From the IMG/VR virus record IMGVR_UViG_3300009428_000008, positions 1 to 60,233 of that record: a stretch of 60,233 bases of DNA, one strand, 5' to 3'. The stretch comes from a virus. The notes under the pieces are model-generated. The model ran no database searches, was not told the origin of the DNA, and saw only the letters and a list, made by a program, of their open reading frames with translations. The position numbers and the translations under genes are program-made. Positions 3,127 through 59,510 of the stretch are shown here, in pieces (position 1 is the first letter of the stretch; each line of letters opens with the position of its first letter).

Positions 3127-4023
3127 ATGAATTTAGGATACGCTTGCATCAACACTGCACTAAGTGCCAACAAAATTATGACAAATCGTACAATGCGTCG
3201 AAAAACATTCGATGCCCAAGGTATTGATTATGTCTCGGATCTAGCATTACTTAATGTTAAAGATCTTAAAACTATTGTTCAATGGAACAATGAAATGAAA
3301 ATTAAATTATTTAGATTATCTAGTCAAATATTTCCATGGTCTGATGAGTATGATGTTAAAACTCTTAAAGATTATAAGGAAATATCTAAAATAATGTTAG
3401 AGGTAGGTAGAATTGCTAAAGATGGAGGTCAACGTCTTACCATGCACCCAGGTCCTTATAATTGCTTAGCATCACCAACACAGAAGGTAGTCGATAAAAC
3501 TGTTCGTGAATTAAATTTCCATAGCGAACAATTCAATATGATGGGATATGATCCTTCCCCTTACAATAAAATTAACATTCATGTTGGAGGCGCATATGGT
3601 GATAAAAAATTAACATTGGCGCGTTTTGTGCGGAATTTTAGTTTATTGAGTAACGACGCTAAAAAACGCTTAGTTATTGAAAATGATGACAGTCCCAACG
3701 AATATTCTGTTAAAGATTTATTTGATGGTATTTTCCAAAATATAGGTATTCCAATTACATTTGATTATTTCCACCATAAATTTAATACTGGTGATCTTAC
3801 TGAAGAGCAAGCTTTAAAAATGGCATCTATTACATGGCCTGAGGGAATTGCTCAATGTTGTCATTATTCTGAAAGTAGAAGGAAAGAAATGTTAGATGAA
3901 TCCATAAGACCTCAAGCCCACTCAGATTTAATTTATGAAAAGATTCAAACTTATGGACTTGAACCTGATATTGTTATTGAAGCTAAAATGAAAGAACAAG
4001 CAATTTTCAAAAGACCAATATAA
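3127..4023 (+). CDS. uvsE: UV damage endonuclease (UvdE/UvsE family)
   Basis: A 298-residue TIM-barrel metalloenzyme of the UVDE family, which nicks DNA 5' of UV photoproducts in an ATP-independent excision pathway. Supporting motifs: N-terminal L-G-Y-A-C-I-N (2-8), the F-R-L-S-S-Q-I-F-P strand (about 62-70), R-L-T-M-H-P-G-P (about 102-109), I-N-I-H-V-G-G-A-Y-G-D-K (about 149-160), L-V-I-E-N-D-D (about 179-185), and T-F-D-Y-F-H-H-K (about 199-206), giving the His/Glu/Asp metal ligands of the family. Length is typical. It has its own host-type promoter and an AAAGGTTATG start. It probably protects phage DNA in sunlit water. Confidence 0.9.
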   Translation: MNLGYACINTALSANKIMTNRTMRRKTFDAQGIDYVSDLALLNVKDLKTIVQWNNEMKIKLFRLSSQIFPWSDEYDVKTLKDYKEISKIMLEVGRIAKDGGQRLTMHPGPYNCLASPTQKVVDKTVRELNFHSEQFNMMGYDPSPYNKINIHVGGAYGDKKLTLARFVRNFSLLSNDAKKRLVIENDDSPNEYSVKDLFDGIFQNIGIPITFDYFHHKFNTGDLTEEQALKMASITWPEGIAQCCHYSESRRKEMLDESIRPQAHSDLIYEKIQTYGLEPDIVIEAKMKEQAIFKRPI

Positions 4024-28980: not shown

Positions 28981-29802
28981 ATGGACAATTTTAACTTAAA
29001 AAAATATTTAACTGAAGGTAGTTTACTTAAAGAAGCTCAAGATAACCCAAAGGCAATTATATTAGCAGGAGCACCTGGAGCTGGTAAAGGTTATATCTTA
29101 CGAGGTTTAGATTTAGGAGGTTTAAAGATATTAAATGTAGATGATATTTACATGGAACTTCTTAAGAAAGGAAATATTTCCCTTAATCTAAAAAAAGCAA
29201 CTCCTGAAGAAAGAAGCCAACAAGCTTCTGCTATGGCAGTTGCAAATAAAGAATTTAAGGGTGATGTTGCTAACACAATTGAAGGTAAAGAATCATTTAT
29301 ACTAGATGGTACAGGTGCTTCATATAACCAAGCTGTTAAATTAAAAGGTGAATTAGAAGAAGCGGGATATAGTGTATTTATGCTTTATGTTTATACTGAT
29401 TTAGAACGTGCATTATACCAGAATCAGGACAGATATGAAAAATCTGATGGTAAGGATAGAAGTTTAGCACCTGCTATAGTAATGAAAACTTGGAAAAATG
29501 TAACAAAAAATTATACACCATATCAAGAATTATTTGGTGATAATTTTATATCAGTAGCTAATACTTTAGAGGATCAAGAAATAGGTGACTTGGATAGCAT
29601 TGTAAAAAAATATCTTGAGCCTTATAAGCCTGAGGGAACAATACCAAAAACACCAAAACAACAAGCTCGTAGAGATAAAGAAAAAGCACAAGATGCTGAA
29701 GAGTTAAGATCTATGCTCAATGATAAATTTGTACAAAATATTGTAGATTCATCAATATCCAAAGATGAGGCACAAACAAGATTAAAAAACTTTTTAAAAT
29801 GA
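28981..29802 (+). CDS. Zeta-toxin-like P-loop kinase with capsid-targeting-like N terminus
   Basis: A 273-residue protein. Residues 1-19 form a helix with two L-x-E sites, Y-L-T-E12 and L16-K-E18-A19, resembling the T4 capsid-targeting peptide cut by gp21; the first eight residues MDNFNLKK are identical to those of the protein at 41602. The enzyme domain has a P loop G-A-P-G-A-G-K-G (30-37), V-D-D-I-Y (53-57), and F-I-L-D-G-T-G (about 106-112), as in zeta toxin/AAA-type small-molecule kinases. The C-terminal 70 residues are charged and helical. Substrate unknown. It could be carried in the head and injected. It overlaps the next gene by four bases. Confidence 0.7.
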   Translation: MDNFNLKKYLTEGSLLKEAQDNPKAIILAGAPGAGKGYILRGLDLGGLKILNVDDIYMELLKKGNISLNLKKATPEERSQQASAMAVANKEFKGDVANTIEGKESFILDGTGASYNQAVKLKGELEEAGYSVFMLYVYTDLERALYQNQDRYEKSDGKDRSLAPAIVMKTWKNVTKNYTPYQELFGDNFISVANTLEDQEIGDLDSIVKKYLEPYKPEGTIPKTPKQQARRDKEKAQDAEELRSMLNDKFVQNIVDSSISKDEAQTRLKNFLK

Positions 29803-42984: not shown

Positions 42985-44328
42985 ATGAGTAAGAACATAG
43001 TAATGATTGGAGCTGGAGTAGCAAATGTAAATGCTGCTACCAAATTAATCGATGGGGAGTATAAGGGTAAAATTACTATTATTGATATGGGTAAAAACCC
43101 ATACGATAGAAAATATAGTGAAGTAATGGAAGGTTTTTTAGGAGCTGGAGGTTGGTCTGATGGTAAATTAACCTATCATACTTCAATTGGAGGTCAATTA
43201 AGTAAATATTGTGGTGAAGAAAAAGCAATGGAACTATTCGACCAGGTTATAGCTAACTTCAAACGTTTCCATCCTAACCCATCAGAAGTACAATGTTCTG
43301 ATCCTAAATCGGAACCTGAATTTATTAAACCATATTTTGGATTAAGATTATTCCCAGTATGGCACGTTGGTACTGATTATTTACATGAAATTGGTAAAAA
43401 TTGGTATGACTTTTTAGTTGAGGGTGGTGTTGAATTTTATTGGGAATCTAAAGTTACAGACATTAATTTTAAAAATAATAAATTAGAAATAGGAAAGAAA
43501 ATGGATGGTCATTTCTTATATTATGACACCCTTATCTTTGGTGTAGGTAAATCCGGTATTGATTTTGGTAAAAAATTAGCGGAACAATATGACTTACCAA
43601 CAGAACCCAAACCAGTACAAATAGGTGTTCGATTTGAAGCACCACAAAAACACTTCCAGAAATTAATTGATGTATCTTATGATTTTAAATTATATAGAAA
43701 ATTCGAAGACAAGGGAGTATCATTACGTTCTTTCTGTACAAACAACAATGCAGCATATGTTGCCGTTGAAGAAACGTATGGAGACCATTCGTATAATGGA
43801 CACGCTAAAAAAGATGAAGCCTTCCGAAATAATATGACTAACTTTGGTATCCTAATGGAAGTACAAGGCATAGATAATCCATTTGAATGGTCTAGAGAAT
43901 TAGTAGGTAAAGTACAAGAAGAAGGTACAGGTTTATTTTATAGTCCTACCCGTAAACCTACAACAACCTCTGAAGGAATTGAGGTAAGTACTATTCAAAT
44001 TGATTCATTAAATAGAATTAGAGAAGCATTTAAGGGTTATTATACTTATATTGATGATTTTATTGAAGATATGAAAAAAGTATTCCCAACATTAGGAGAT
44101 GATTGGGGAGTATATATACCAGAAATTAAATATCTATCCCCTGAACCTTTAGTTAATTATAAAGATTTAAGTTTAACAAAATATCCAAATGTACACTTTG
44201 TAGGTGATGCATTAAGTGCTAGAGGTATTACAGTATCGGGAGCACAAGGAATATATGTTGTTGAATCATTATTAGGAGATATAAAAGAAGATGATTACAT
44301 TGAAACAGGAGATATAATAAGTTTTTAA
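42985..44328 (+). CDS. FAD-dependent oxidoreductase
   Basis: A 447-residue flavoprotein. Residues 5-20 are a Rossmann dinucleotide-binding turn (V-M-I-G9-A-G11-V-A-N14) followed by an acidic strand end I-I-D-M-G-K; residues 49-61 contain F-L-G-A-G-G-W-S-D-G-K-L, typical of FAD-dependent dehydrogenases of the COG2509 type. A second strand F-G-V-G-K-S-G occurs about residue 188, and the C-terminal F-V-G-D-A-L-S-A-R-G (about 410) is the second FAD contact. The substrate is unknown. It stands alone between a terminator and its own promoter, suggesting a host-metabolism gene. Confidence 0.85.
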   Translation: MSKNIVMIGAGVANVNAATKLIDGEYKGKITIIDMGKNPYDRKYSEVMEGFLGAGGWSDGKLTYHTSIGGQLSKYCGEEKAMELFDQVIANFKRFHPNPSEVQCSDPKSEPEFIKPYFGLRLFPVWHVGTDYLHEIGKNWYDFLVEGGVEFYWESKVTDINFKNNKLEIGKKMDGHFLYYDTLIFGVGKSGIDFGKKLAEQYDLPTEPKPVQIGVRFEAPQKHFQKLIDVSYDFKLYRKFEDKGVSLRSFCTNNNAAYVAVEETYGDHSYNGHAKKDEAFRNNMTNFGILMEVQGIDNPFEWSRELVGKVQEEGTGLFYSPTRKPTTTSEGIEVSTIQIDSLNRIREAFKGYYTYIDDFIEDMKKVFPTLGDDWGVYIPEIKYLSPEPLVNYKDLSLTKYPNVHFVGDALSARGITVSGAQGIYVVESLLGDIKEDDYIETGDIISF

Positions 44329-44613: not shown

Positions 44614-45507
44614 ATGATAGAAATAAAATATAACCATAAATTGAATAGGGTTTCCCATAAAAATCTAACGGATACCCAATCAACTTTTGATTTAATTGCT
44701 ATTGATTTAGATACAAATCTTCCATTTATAAAATGGTATGTTATGTTACCCCCAAATGAGTCTGCTCATTTTGATTTAGAAAAATCATTTATGTCTAACA
44801 TATCAGGAATAGAAATAAATGCTTATCATAATGGAGATTTAATACATACTGAAAGGTTTCAATGGGCTAAATTAGATAATAGATTTACATTTATTTGCCC
44901 CAAAACAGAATTAGCATATGCTTCTTGGCATAGTTTAGTTTATGATGATGAATATAAGTCAAAATTTAAAAATGATGATGTTATATATGATTTAGGAGCT
45001 AATTTTGGGGTTTATACAATGTTGGCTGTAAATAATGGTGTAAAACAAGATTACGCCTTTGAACCAACCCCAAATAATGTAGATTGTTTAAAGAAAACTT
45101 TTAAATTTGATAGTAATGTAACTATCTTCGATAAAGCAATAGGTGGTAAAGATGAAAAATTAATATTTTACCTACAACAACATTCAGTAGCAAATAGTAT
45201 ACATAATACTAATGGCACTCCCCTAGAAGTAGATTGTATTAATTTAGAAAATTTTATAAATACAAATCAATTATTAAAACCAACCATTATTAAATGTGAT
45301 ATTGAAGGTTCAGAATATGATTTTATAGAATCATGTACTGATGAATTCTTTAAGGGCATACATACAATTATATTTGAGTTCCATAATAATAATAACAATC
45401 AAATTTGGAATCCAACAAAAAAGTTATTAAATTTAGGTTATAATATAAAAATGAACAAAGATAATTATATAGATTCTTCTATGTCTACCTTTGTTGCTAG
45501 AAAATAA
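44614..45507 (+). CDS. FkbM-family methyltransferase
   Basis: A 297-residue SAM-dependent O-methyltransferase-like protein. The SAM-binding motif D-L-G-A-N-F-G-V-Y-T is at about 126-135, then A-F-E-P-T-P-N-N (about 149-156) as motif II, D-K-A-I-G-G-K-D (about 173-180), and I-K-C-D-I-E-G-S-E-Y (about 228-237), the FkbM hallmark with the metal-binding Asp. The N-terminal 110 residues are beta-rich and may bind the acceptor. FkbM enzymes usually methylate sugars or lipids, so host or virion glycan modification is plausible but inferred. Confidence 0.85.
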   Translation: MIEIKYNHKLNRVSHKNLTDTQSTFDLIAIDLDTNLPFIKWYVMLPPNESAHFDLEKSFMSNISGIEINAYHNGDLIHTERFQWAKLDNRFTFICPKTELAYASWHSLVYDDEYKSKFKNDDVIYDLGANFGVYTMLAVNNGVKQDYAFEPTPNNVDCLKKTFKFDSNVTIFDKAIGGKDEKLIFYLQQHSVANSIHNTNGTPLEVDCINLENFINTNQLLKPTIIKCDIEGSEYDFIESCTDEFFKGIHTIIFEFHNNNNNQIWNPTKKLLNLGYNIKMNKDNYIDSSMSTFVARK

Positions 45508-57022: not shown

Positions 57023-57046
57023 TCTAAGATTATATAAATAATAAGG

Positions 57047-57075
57047 AAGCCCCGCATTAGCGGGGCTTTTTTTTT
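57047..57075 (+). terminator. Strong rho-independent terminator after the capsid gene
   Basis: AAGCCCCGC (57047-57055) and GCGGGGCTT (57060-57068) form a 9-bp stem with loop ATTA, followed by a run of T to 57075. It is the clearest terminator in the window and caps the head operon. Confidence 0.95.
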
Positions 57076-57079
57076 CCTA

Positions 57080-57145: not shown

Positions 57146-58060
57146 ATGAAAGAAACACCATCACAGTTACCTATTCAAAGTTATGTAATGAATTTTCCCT
57201 TTACATTTTCAACAGATGATCCTAATAATGTTTGGATGAAAGAAATGTCAGGGAAAGAATTATCAATAAATAGACCTAAAGCTTATAAACAGTTTATGGA
57301 TCTCTATAATTTTATGGCTGGACAATCTTTAGTTCATTTACTACCAGCAGAGGGCAATTTTCAAGATTTAGTATATGTTGCTAATCTTGGCTTACAACTA
57401 CCCCATATTAAAGATGAAAATCATATCTTACTATCAAATTATACTTCACCACCTAGACAAGGTGAAGAATATGTAGGTGAAAAATTCTTCAATCAGATGG
57501 GTTATAAAACTCATATATCCCCCCATAAATGGGAAGGAGAAGCAGATATAAAATATTTAAATGGTAACACTTATATTGGTGGTTTTGATATTAGATCAGA
57601 TATTCAAGCATACCATTGGATGGAGGAAAATTTTGATATGAATATTATCAAAGTAAAAATGGTTGATGAATATATGTACCATTTAGATTGTAGTATATTT
57701 CCGTTAAATACGCGCTCAACTATGGTTTGTACGGAATTATATGATAAAACCGAGTTAGCGCAAATAAGCAAATATACTAACGTAATAGACGTAAATGTTG
57801 ACGACTCTATGTATGGAATGGCCAATTCTGTTAGATTAGGAAATATGATTTTATGTGCCTCAAACATATCAGAAATGAAGCGAGGTGATGAATTTTATGA
57901 TGGTGAAAAACACAAAATAGAATCACTTGAAAAAATATGCTCTGATGAAGGAATGGAACCAATAATATTTAACTTATCAGAATATATGAAATCTGGAGCA
58001 ATGTTAAGTTGTATGGTAATGCATTTAAATAGAGTTGATCATTTTAAAACTTTATTATAA
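57146..58060 (+). CDS. Amidinotransferase/dimethylargininase-family enzyme
   Basis: A 304-residue protein of the guanidino-group-modifying superfamily (DDAH, arginine deiminase, amidinotransferase; pentein fold). Catalytic pattern in order: D74-L-V-Y-V-A-N (D-x-V-F-x-x-N type), G131-E-A-D, H179-L-D181, and the nucleophile C289 in K-S-G-A-M-L-S-C-M-V-M-H. Length suits DDAH-like enzymes (about 255-310). Likely hydrolyses or transfers from arginine or a methylated arginine; the exact substrate is unknown. First gene of an operon separated from the capsid gene by a terminator and promoter; the next gene starts one base after its stop. Confidence 0.8.
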   Translation: MKETPSQLPIQSYVMNFPFTFSTDDPNNVWMKEMSGKELSINRPKAYKQFMDLYNFMAGQSLVHLLPAEGNFQDLVYVANLGLQLPHIKDENHILLSNYTSPPRQGEEYVGEKFFNQMGYKTHISPHKWEGEADIKYLNGNTYIGGFDIRSDIQAYHWMEENFDMNIIKVKMVDEYMYHLDCSIFPLNTRSTMVCTELYDKTELAQISKYTNVIDVNVDDSMYGMANSVRLGNMILCASNISEMKRGDEFYDGEKHKIESLEKICSDEGMEPIIFNLSEYMKSGAMLSCMVMHLNRVDHFKTLL

Positions 58061-58795
58061 ATGGCAGAAAAGTTAGAGGATTGGCTTAATGGTGAAGTCG
58101 CTGAATTATCTAAATTATCTGTTGGTGAATTAAGTAACACATTCTTTTTTAGAGATCCCTTAAGATCAACATTAATAGATTATAAACACTTCTATAGTCC
58201 TGCAGATGGAACCATATTATATCAAAAAATAGTTCAACCCGGAGAGCAAGTACTTGAAATAAAAGGTATAGATTATACAATTCAAGATGTAATGGGTGAT
58301 AAAGATTATAACCAACCCTCTTTAGTTATTGGGATATTTATGTCATTTTATGATGTTCATATTAATAGAATTCCTTATGGTGGTGTACTTAAATATAAAC
58401 GTTTGGAACCCATAGAATCAACAAACAAACCAATGTTGGCGGTTGAAAAAGATATATTAAATAAAGTAATTAATCCTAATAATATGGATTATTTGAAATA
58501 CAATGAAAGAATGTCTAACCAGGTATATGTCCCTTCTTTAGATTACACATACCATATAATACAAATAGCCGATGAAGATGTAAACGTTATAGCTCCCTTC
58601 AAACAACAACGAGATCTTTGTACTCAAAATGAAAGATTTAGTTTAATTAGATGGGGATCACAGGTAGATTTAGTTCTACCCCTAGATTCTAGATATGAAT
58701 TTGAGACTATTCTAGACGATACAATGCATATTAATGCAGGTCTTGATAAATTAATTAAAATTAAAGAAGTTAAAAATGACCTCAAATCATCATGA
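58061..58795 (+). CDS. psd: Phosphatidylserine decarboxylase-like protein
   Basis: A 244-residue pyruvoyl-type decarboxylase homologue, converting phosphatidylserine to phosphatidylethanolamine in the family. Motifs: F-F-F-R-D-P-L-R (28-35), S-P-A-D49-G (46-50), I-F-M-S-F-Y-D-V-H100-I-N-R-I-P (92-105), N-E-R (148-150), I-I-Q-I-A-D (166-171) and R-F-S-L-I-R-W-G-S200-Q-V-D (192-203), where G-S is the self-cleavage site giving the pyruvoyl group. Length fits short-form (type II) enzymes. No transmembrane segment seen. Unusual in a phage. It overlaps PhoH by 20 bases. Confidence 0.85.
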   Translation: MAEKLEDWLNGEVAELSKLSVGELSNTFFFRDPLRSTLIDYKHFYSPADGTILYQKIVQPGEQVLEIKGIDYTIQDVMGDKDYNQPSLVIGIFMSFYDVHINRIPYGGVLKYKRLEPIESTNKPMLAVEKDILNKVINPNNMDYLKYNERMSNQVYVPSLDYTYHIIQIADEDVNVIAPFKQQRDLCTQNERFSLIRWGSQVDLVLPLDSRYEFETILDDTMHINAGLDKLIKIKEVKNDLKSS

Positions 58796-59510
58796 AGATG
58801 AAGTCTTCAGACCAAAAAGAATAGTGAAAAATCCAATTAAATTTAAATTAGCTCTAAATGAAGAGCAAAAGTTAGCTAAAGATGAAATATTAAATAATAC
58901 CTTAACATTATTAGCAGGTAGAGCAGGTTCAGGTAAAACATTATTAGCATGTCAAGTAGCTTTAGATGGTCTTTTAAGAAGACACTATTCAAAAATTATT
59001 ATAACTAGACCAACTGTGTCTAAAGAAGAAATTGGTTTCCTACCTGGAGATTTAAGAGAAAAAATGGATCCTTGGATTCAACCAATTTATCAAAATATGT
59101 ATGCTTTATTTGATAAAGTAAAAGTAGAAAAACTTATTGAAGATGGTAAAATAGAAATTGTACCTTTAGCATTTATGAGAGGTAGAACGTTTTTGGATGC
59201 ATGTATTATAGTAGATGAAGCTCAGAATGTTACTCATGAACAAATGGAAATGATTTCAACTCGTATTGGTTTAAGATCAAAAATGATTATCTGTGGTGAC
59301 GATCATCAAGTAGATTTAAAGTCTCGACGTGATTCTGGATTTAGATTTTTATATAAAGAAGCTCGTAGGGTAAAAAATATGTGTTCTATAACTTTATTAA
59401 AAAATCATAGAGATCCTATTGTAGATAGTTTAATTGAGATTTATGAAGAAGCTGAAAGAAAAGGAATAACTAAATCCTCCTCGGGTACTAGCGGAAGAGG
59501 AAAAAAGTAA
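58776..59510 (+). CDS. phoH: PhoH-family ATPase
   Basis: A 244-residue P-loop protein. Walker A G-R-A-G-S-G-K-T (48-55), R-P-T-V-S-K-E-E-I-G-F-L-P-G-D (about 76-90), Walker B I-I-V-D-E-A-Q-N (about 145-152), sensor I-C-G-D-D-H-Q-V-D (about 169-177) and N-H-R-D-P-I-V. These are the PhoH hallmarks; phoH is a common gene of marine phages, with a proposed ATP-dependent RNA/phosphate-stress role. The start overlaps the previous gene by 20 bases, the longest overlap in the window, and no later in-frame ATG keeps the N-terminal part. Confidence 0.93.
   Translation: MTSNHHEDEVFRPKRIVKNPIKFKLALNEEQKLAKDEILNNTLTLLAGRAGSGKTLLACQVALDGLLRRHYSKIIITRPTVSKEEIGFLPGDLREKMDPWIQPIYQNMYALFDKVKVEKLIEDGKIEIVPLAFMRGRTFLDACIIVDEAQNVTHEQMEMISTRIGLRSKMIICGDDHQVDLKSRRDSGFRFLYKEARRVKNMCSITLLKNHRDPIVDSLIEIYEEAERKGITKSSSGTSGRGKK

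Follow-up and report, generated by a model that had tools for sequence, protein, structure and literature searches.

The locus analysed here raises the question of why a phage would carry a gene of the phosphatidylserine decarboxylase (PSD) family, and on what its product might act. The gene (58061..58795, ATG start, 244 amino acids) lies in a viral sequence record 60,233 bases long, referred to in the following as the window; coordinates written as start..end denote features on its + strand. A preliminary description had reported that this reading frame contains the motifs of short-form PSDs and is flanked by an arginine-type enzyme on its upstream side and by PhoH on the other, and had suggested that the phage remodels host phospholipids, which it called rarely reported. 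The motifs and both neighbours are indeed present. The analysis nevertheless favors a different substrate; i.e., we propose that a soluble protein with the PSD fold has been repurposed for a small cationic amino acid, and that, with the arginine-dihydrolase-like enzyme encoded upstream, it would take arginine to ornithine and then to putrescine. We assign this reading a probability of about 0.5.

The PSD-like gene and its phage setting

The motifs of the protein comprise SPADG (residues 46-50), DVHINRIP (98-105) and RWGSQVDL, the last with G199-S200. Its sole Pfam match is PF02666 (PS_Dcarbxylase; E = 6.2e-23, 81.9 bits, cut-off 22), which places it outside the AdoMetDC family of the SpeD type. 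Against all curated NCBIfam PSD equivalog models it scores far under the cut-offs, with a best value of 71.9 bits versus 183, an early sign that the protein may not be an ordinary PSD.

Alignment with E. coli PSD assigns the catalytic residues. The codons of G199-S200 (58655..58660) specify the predicted self-cleavage site and pyruvoyl serine, equivalent to E. coli S254; the codon of D49 (58205..58207) corresponds to D90, and those of D98-V99-H100 (58352..58360) include the equivalents of D142 and H144. In E. coli PSD, D90/D142, H144 and S254 act in self-cleavage, and H144 acts in decarboxylation (PMC7952604). Among 74 aligned sequences of the clade described below, D49, H100, G199 and S200 are invariant, and D98 is kept in 73. 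Because the equivalents D49, D98, H100 and S200 are conserved, the pyruvoyl chemistry of the protein is expected to be intact. The dN/dS of the gene, measured against eight close relatives, is 0.03-0.08, and the gene is therefore under strong purifying selection.

An AlphaFold2 model of the protein (pLDDT 83, pTM 0.85) was used for a fold search of the PDB. The only significant or near-significant matches, with low TM-scores of 0.38-0.49, were E. coli PSD (E 1e-4, probability 1.0) and the mushroom enzyme PsiD (E 0.018, probability 0.99, just under significance). A PDB sequence search with the single protein gave no match, and a PDB profile search matched E. coli PSD alone.

The window is a fragment of a T4-like phage, in which a Pfam search matched the gp21 protease and gp23. 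Its terminase is closest to that of Flavobacterium phage immuto (60%), and Shine-Dalgarno-like tetramers were found for 2 of its 39 genes, versus 10% at random positions, a scarcity like that in Bacteroidota. On these two grounds, the host is probably a flavobacterium or a relative. The PSD-like gene overlaps by 20 bp with a phoH-like gene (58776..59510; PF02562, 1.6e-62). A terminator-like hairpin with a T run (57043..57077; RNA fold -21.7 kcal/mol, z = -4.1) sits between gp23 and the genes for the partner enzyme, the PSD-like protein and PhoH, thus parting them; at its inverted repeat, a pattern scan flagged the other strand. Elsewhere, the window encodes a UvdE-type UV-damage endonuclease (3127-4023; PF03851, E 3e-56), a Zeta-toxin-like P-loop kinase domain (28981-29802; PF06414, E 5e-15), and a flavoprotein-like oxidoreductase (weak Pyr_redox_2) near an FkbM-type methyltransferase (42985-44328 / 44614-45507).

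A constant arginine-dihydrolase-like partner

The upstream gene (57146..58060, 304 amino acids) ends immediately ahead of the start codon of the PSD-like gene, and encodes an arginine-dihydrolase-like, guanidino-group-modifying enzyme, the constant partner of the PSD-like protein. It matches the NCBIfam model Arg_dihydro at 2e-23 (82.8 bits, under the cut-off of 450), and its dN/dS against eight relatives is 0.05-0.08. By sequence, profile and fold, its closest solved structures are AgrE and ArgZ; the model of the partner (pLDDT 90.5) matches ArgZ/AgrE at E 8e-21, with TM-scores of 0.79/0.88, while DDAH (1e-12) and an amidinotransferase (2e-11) are weaker matches.

In the alignment, N80, R104, E130, D134, R150 and H179 of the partner correspond to AgrE N71, R90, E118, D122, R139 and H168, respectively. 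R104 is kept in all 72 sequences compared, E130 and H179 in 70 each, R150 in 68, and D134 in most, with glutamate in ten. The N80 codon (57383..57385), equivalent to ArgZ/AgrE N71 as counted on the profile alignment, specifies asparagine in 69 of the 72. The predicted catalytic cysteine, C289 (58010..58012), was equated with ArgZ C264 by motif match, outside the HMMER alignment, and is cysteine in 67 of the 72. We take ArgZ R90 and R139 to bind the substrate carboxylate, and N71 to be needed for the second hydrolysis. The roles assumed for N71 and C264 agree with PDB titles, namely those of 6juz (ArgZ N71S with a trapped intermediate) and 6jv1 (ArgZ C264S). The partner thus appears, from its sequence, to be like an arginine dihydrolase, with the active-site residues of ArgZ kept. 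Since the two presumed carboxylate-binding arginines are among these (R104 and R150), the partner should act before decarboxylation.

In marine phage contigs, the two genes are adjacent wherever the contig extends far enough. This is the case in 78/78 contigs among 80 loci fetched with the PSD-like protein; a search with the partner yielded 79 loci, and the PSD-like gene follows it in 77/77, many contigs being common to both sets. The genes are also adjacent in Bacteroides phage DAC16. A phage collection yielded 45 records matching the PSD-like protein and 46 matching the partner, from two host groups that are the same for both. In Campylobacter phage NCTC12673, the homologues gp86 (annotated as PSD, 35% identity) and gp45 (amidinotransferase, 38%) are encoded 43 kb apart and annotated separately, and the record notes no link between them. 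Flavobacterium phage immuto and Microcystis phage Mel-JY01, the latter also near by terminase, carry different genes in the interval from gp23 to phoH, and neither protein was matched in these two phages; the pair therefore behaves as a cassette. No phoH adjoins the pair in Bacteroides and Campylobacter phages; phoH therefore lies outside the conserved unit, and the phoH-like gene of the window is probably a neighbour outside the proposed pathway. A role of the pair in the gp23-phoH structural block was rejected on similar grounds, i.e., other phages carry it without adjacent phoH or gp23. One irregular record was noted, that of Campylobacter phage PT14_12670_16 (PV052266.1), in which the psd homologue appears as two annotated ORFs, and many genes are broken into fragments. 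This record is filed under Rountreeviridae, at odds with its T4-like content, and probably combines sequencing errors with a wrong taxonomy label.

A scan of 84,980 species genomes revealed at least 17 full-length bacterial loci with relatives of the PSD-like protein (42-51% identity, E 1e-76 to 7e-65); those among the matches listed belong to Actinomycetota, Verrucomicrobiota, Acidobacteriota and Latescibacterota. The partner lies directly downstream of the PSD-like gene in 16 of 17 loci among these matches; in the 17th genome, from Latescibacterota, it is found elsewhere, beside a MATE gene. Samples of 396 and 388 genomes from two phyla gave one further match each, with the partner alongside both. 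At the locus of genome G188, the order is psd-partner-MATE. The locus of genome G549 (L342; contig C341, 88050-89759), sampled as Verrucomicrobiota, has the phage order, partner-psd, on a contig of 28% GC, with endolysin-like, dUTPase-like and GAPDH-like genes beside the pair; this contig may be phage, perhaps of a further lineage. With G549 left out, the partner is present in all 18 bacterial genomes found, and adjacent in 17, among the matches listed. The module is rare in bacteria.

Exporter genes, either MATE or ABC, are alongside at 13 bacterial loci in all. MATE genes lie by the pair at eight of these and by the partner alone in the Latescibacterota genome, and ABC exporter genes lie by the pair at four. 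The ABC evidence is the weaker, because ABC matches also occur in about 10 of 63 canonical PSD loci; the same 63 loci gave no MATE match and one distant PotD match. In three Verrucomicrobia, each with a MATE gene, the pair is followed by a PotD/PotF-like polyamine-binding protein. Two loci are cut by contig ends, and the three that have no exporter are exactly those whose partner has lost active-site residues. These three, and a second copy in Streptoalloteichus hindustanus (G001:C11:29230-30036), are from Pseudonocardiaceae; their partner lacks the catalytic cysteine and other residues, and is possibly a pseudo-enzyme, while their PSD-like protein is intact. Such a degraded partner next to an intact PSD-like protein, seen in Streptoalloteichus and one Allokutzneria, means that the coupling is not enzymatic in every case.

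The pairing, the exporters and the loss of lipid context would also fit the production of another amine. That is, the partner might deiminate arginine or serve as an amidinotransferase, or arginine, citrulline or another amino acid might be the substrate of the PSD-like enzyme, so that agmatine or a guanidino compound would be exported. Campylobacter phage records do name the partner an amidinotransferase, and the notes of the NCTC12673 record point to actinobacterial relatives, including AF210249, which we take to be the bleomycin cluster. However, the fold and residues of the partner fit an arginine dihydrolase better than an amidinotransferase or an agmatine deiminase, and the arginines presumed to bind the carboxylate are precisely those retained in 72/72 (R104) and 68/72 (R150) sequences. 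A natural-product cluster around the Streptoalloteichus copies was considered and rejected, as no NRPS/PKS motif was found in ~72 kb; this is a weak negative that counts slightly against another amine, since the same regular expression found no ABC motif either. We regard this alternative as unlikely, albeit one to be taken seriously.

A clade apart from canonical PSDs

In the genome scan, E-values fall from 7e-65 to 8e-19 after the 17 clade loci, and canonical PSDs begin at that point; among the matches listed, the latter are mostly alphaproteobacterial. A phylogenetic tree splits the phage and bacterial clade sequences from canonical PSDs with a support of 96/93 and a long branch. A Sinorhizobium PSD on CP090106, which looks frameshifted in that record, was left out. 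The motif Q[IV]AG[LF][VI]ARRI is found in 63/63 canonical short-form PSD loci and pssA in 62 of them, versus no pssA at the 17 bacterial clade loci among the matches listed, or at the 80 phage loci. When 74 clade and 13 canonical sequences are aligned, position 175 is arginine in all 13 canonical proteins and N/D in 73 of the 74 clade members; position 201 is arginine in 13/13 and glutamine in 74/74, respectively; and E129 and D171 are acids invariant in the clade only. The PSD-like protein accordingly lacks the conserved arginine positions of short-form PSDs (the ARR motif and GSR). Its N-terminus is not hydrophobic (maximal 19-residue hydropathy of 0.45, versus 2.2-2.7 in two short-form PSDs), and amphipathic helices as in E. 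coli PSD are possible. Judged from these sequence features, the protein is a member of a separate, soluble subclade of the PSD family.

A member of this subclade might still be a true PSD, with which the phage would turn host phosphatidylserine to phosphatidylethanolamine and so adjust membrane composition. The Pfam match and the retention of every catalytic residue are consistent with this possibility, as are the fold search, in which E. coli PSD was one of two matches, and the annotation of the Campylobacter phage homologues. The genomic context argues otherwise. Not only is pssA absent from the clade loci, but eight phage records contain no CDP-alcohol phosphatidyltransferase, and in 15/17 bacterial genomes, among the matches listed, the clade gene is a second paralogue beside a gene for a canonical PSD. 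The N-terminus also counts against a true PSD, but a soluble N-terminus and a missing ARR motif would not by themselves speak against a lipid substrate, since E. coli PSD likewise has neither a transmembrane N-terminus nor ARR. Moreover, a true PSD leaves the coupling to an arginine enzyme and to exporters unexplained. We consider this alternative improbable.

Of the preliminary description, then, the assignment to the PSD family with intact self-cleavage residues stands. Lipid remodelling of the host as the main reading was set aside on account of the genomic context (pssA, the paralogue, the N-terminus), the lost arginine positions, and the coupling to the arginine enzyme and exporters. Its statement on rarity holds only in part; the homologue is already annotated as phosphatidylserine decarboxylase in many Campylobacter phage records, and a list of metabolic genes from ocean viruses includes psd (PMC11360552).

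A proposed arginine-to-putrescine pathway and its known counterparts

Since the two genes nearly always occur together, the probable function of the pair is the synthesis of a small amine, and not the remodelling of host membranes. We infer ornithine as the substrate of the decarboxylase from the nature of the partner and from the residue changes in the clade. In the proposed pathway, the partner would hydrolyse arginine through its cysteine, giving ornithine, two NH3 and CO2. The PSD-like proenzyme would cut itself at G199-S200, whereby Ser200 would become the pyruvoyl group; this group would form a Schiff base with ornithine, and release of CO2 would yield putrescine. In the infected cell, putrescine would be raised for phage DNA packaging and translation. 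Putrescine neutralises packaged DNA in T4. In bacteria with the pair, the MATE or ABC transporter would carry the product out of the cell, although the cargo could be other than putrescine. No spermidine synthase was found in the eight phage records, and polyamine synthesis by the phage would therefore stop at putrescine; as the phosphatidyltransferase is missing from the same records, they yielded no complete route to spermidine and no phospholipid route either.

The broader claim is that arginine is converted to putrescine by a new two-enzyme route, whose ornithine-acting decarboxylase arose within the PSD family, and that at least three phage lineages share this route with bacteria from four phyla, in which an exporter usually accompanies the pair. 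We hold this claim tentatively, at slightly less than even odds. That the pair instead supplies nitrogen or tunes the arginine level of the infected cell, with an unrelated substrate for the PSD-like enzyme, is very improbable, for although the cyanobacterial arginine dihydrolases ArgZ and AgrE serve an ornithine-ammonia cycle (PDB titles) and NH3 would be a by-product, this gives no account of the decarboxylase's constant presence with the partner in phages and bacteria.

In Campylobacter, Bacteroides and marine T4-like phages, the clade genes pass for phospholipid enzymes, a reading that encourages claims of viral membrane remodelling. Should putrescine or another amine prove to be the product of the pair, this reading would be mistaken; phages would then possess a second, independent type of pyruvoyl decarboxylase for polyamines, and there would be a testable product for the rare operon that bacteria carry with an exporter. 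Cultured Campylobacter jejuni phages carry both genes, and the question is thus directly testable. Searches of the open-access literature, subscription papers aside, turned up no account of the pair or of the separate clade, and none of an ornithine decarboxylase with the PSD fold.

Besides the Campylobacter phage homologues, four known systems bear comparison with the pair. ArgZ/AgrE of cyanobacteria, the best fold match of the partner, has active-site residues in common with it, but is fused to an ornithine cyclodeaminase domain, whereas here the second step would fall to a separate PSD-like decarboxylase. Short-form PSDs (PF02666, PRK05305, TIGR00164) share with the PSD-like protein the fold family, the G-S site, SPADG, H-x-N-R and the catalytic D/H/S. 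They differ from it in that the PSD-like protein is only ~28-35% identical, with a soluble N-terminus and an extra segment at ~113-150, and in that its clade has replaced arginine positions, no pssA, and an arginine enzyme as partner. The SpeD-family pyruvoyl decarboxylases known from phages act on ornithine or arginine, for putrescine or agmatine; they are likewise phage-encoded pyruvoyl enzymes but originate from S-adenosylmethionine decarboxylase and not from PSD (PMC9992855, PMC10407285); these two papers make no mention of arginine dihydrolase or of phosphatidylserine decarboxylase. Lastly, PsiD, an L-tryptophan decarboxylase (PDB 8x4q), is larger than the PSD-like protein, has an aromatic substrate, and shows 6% identity to it in the fold alignment; it nonetheless belongs to the PSD family and takes a free amino acid as its substrate, and thus provides the precedent that the PSD fold can decarboxylate one.
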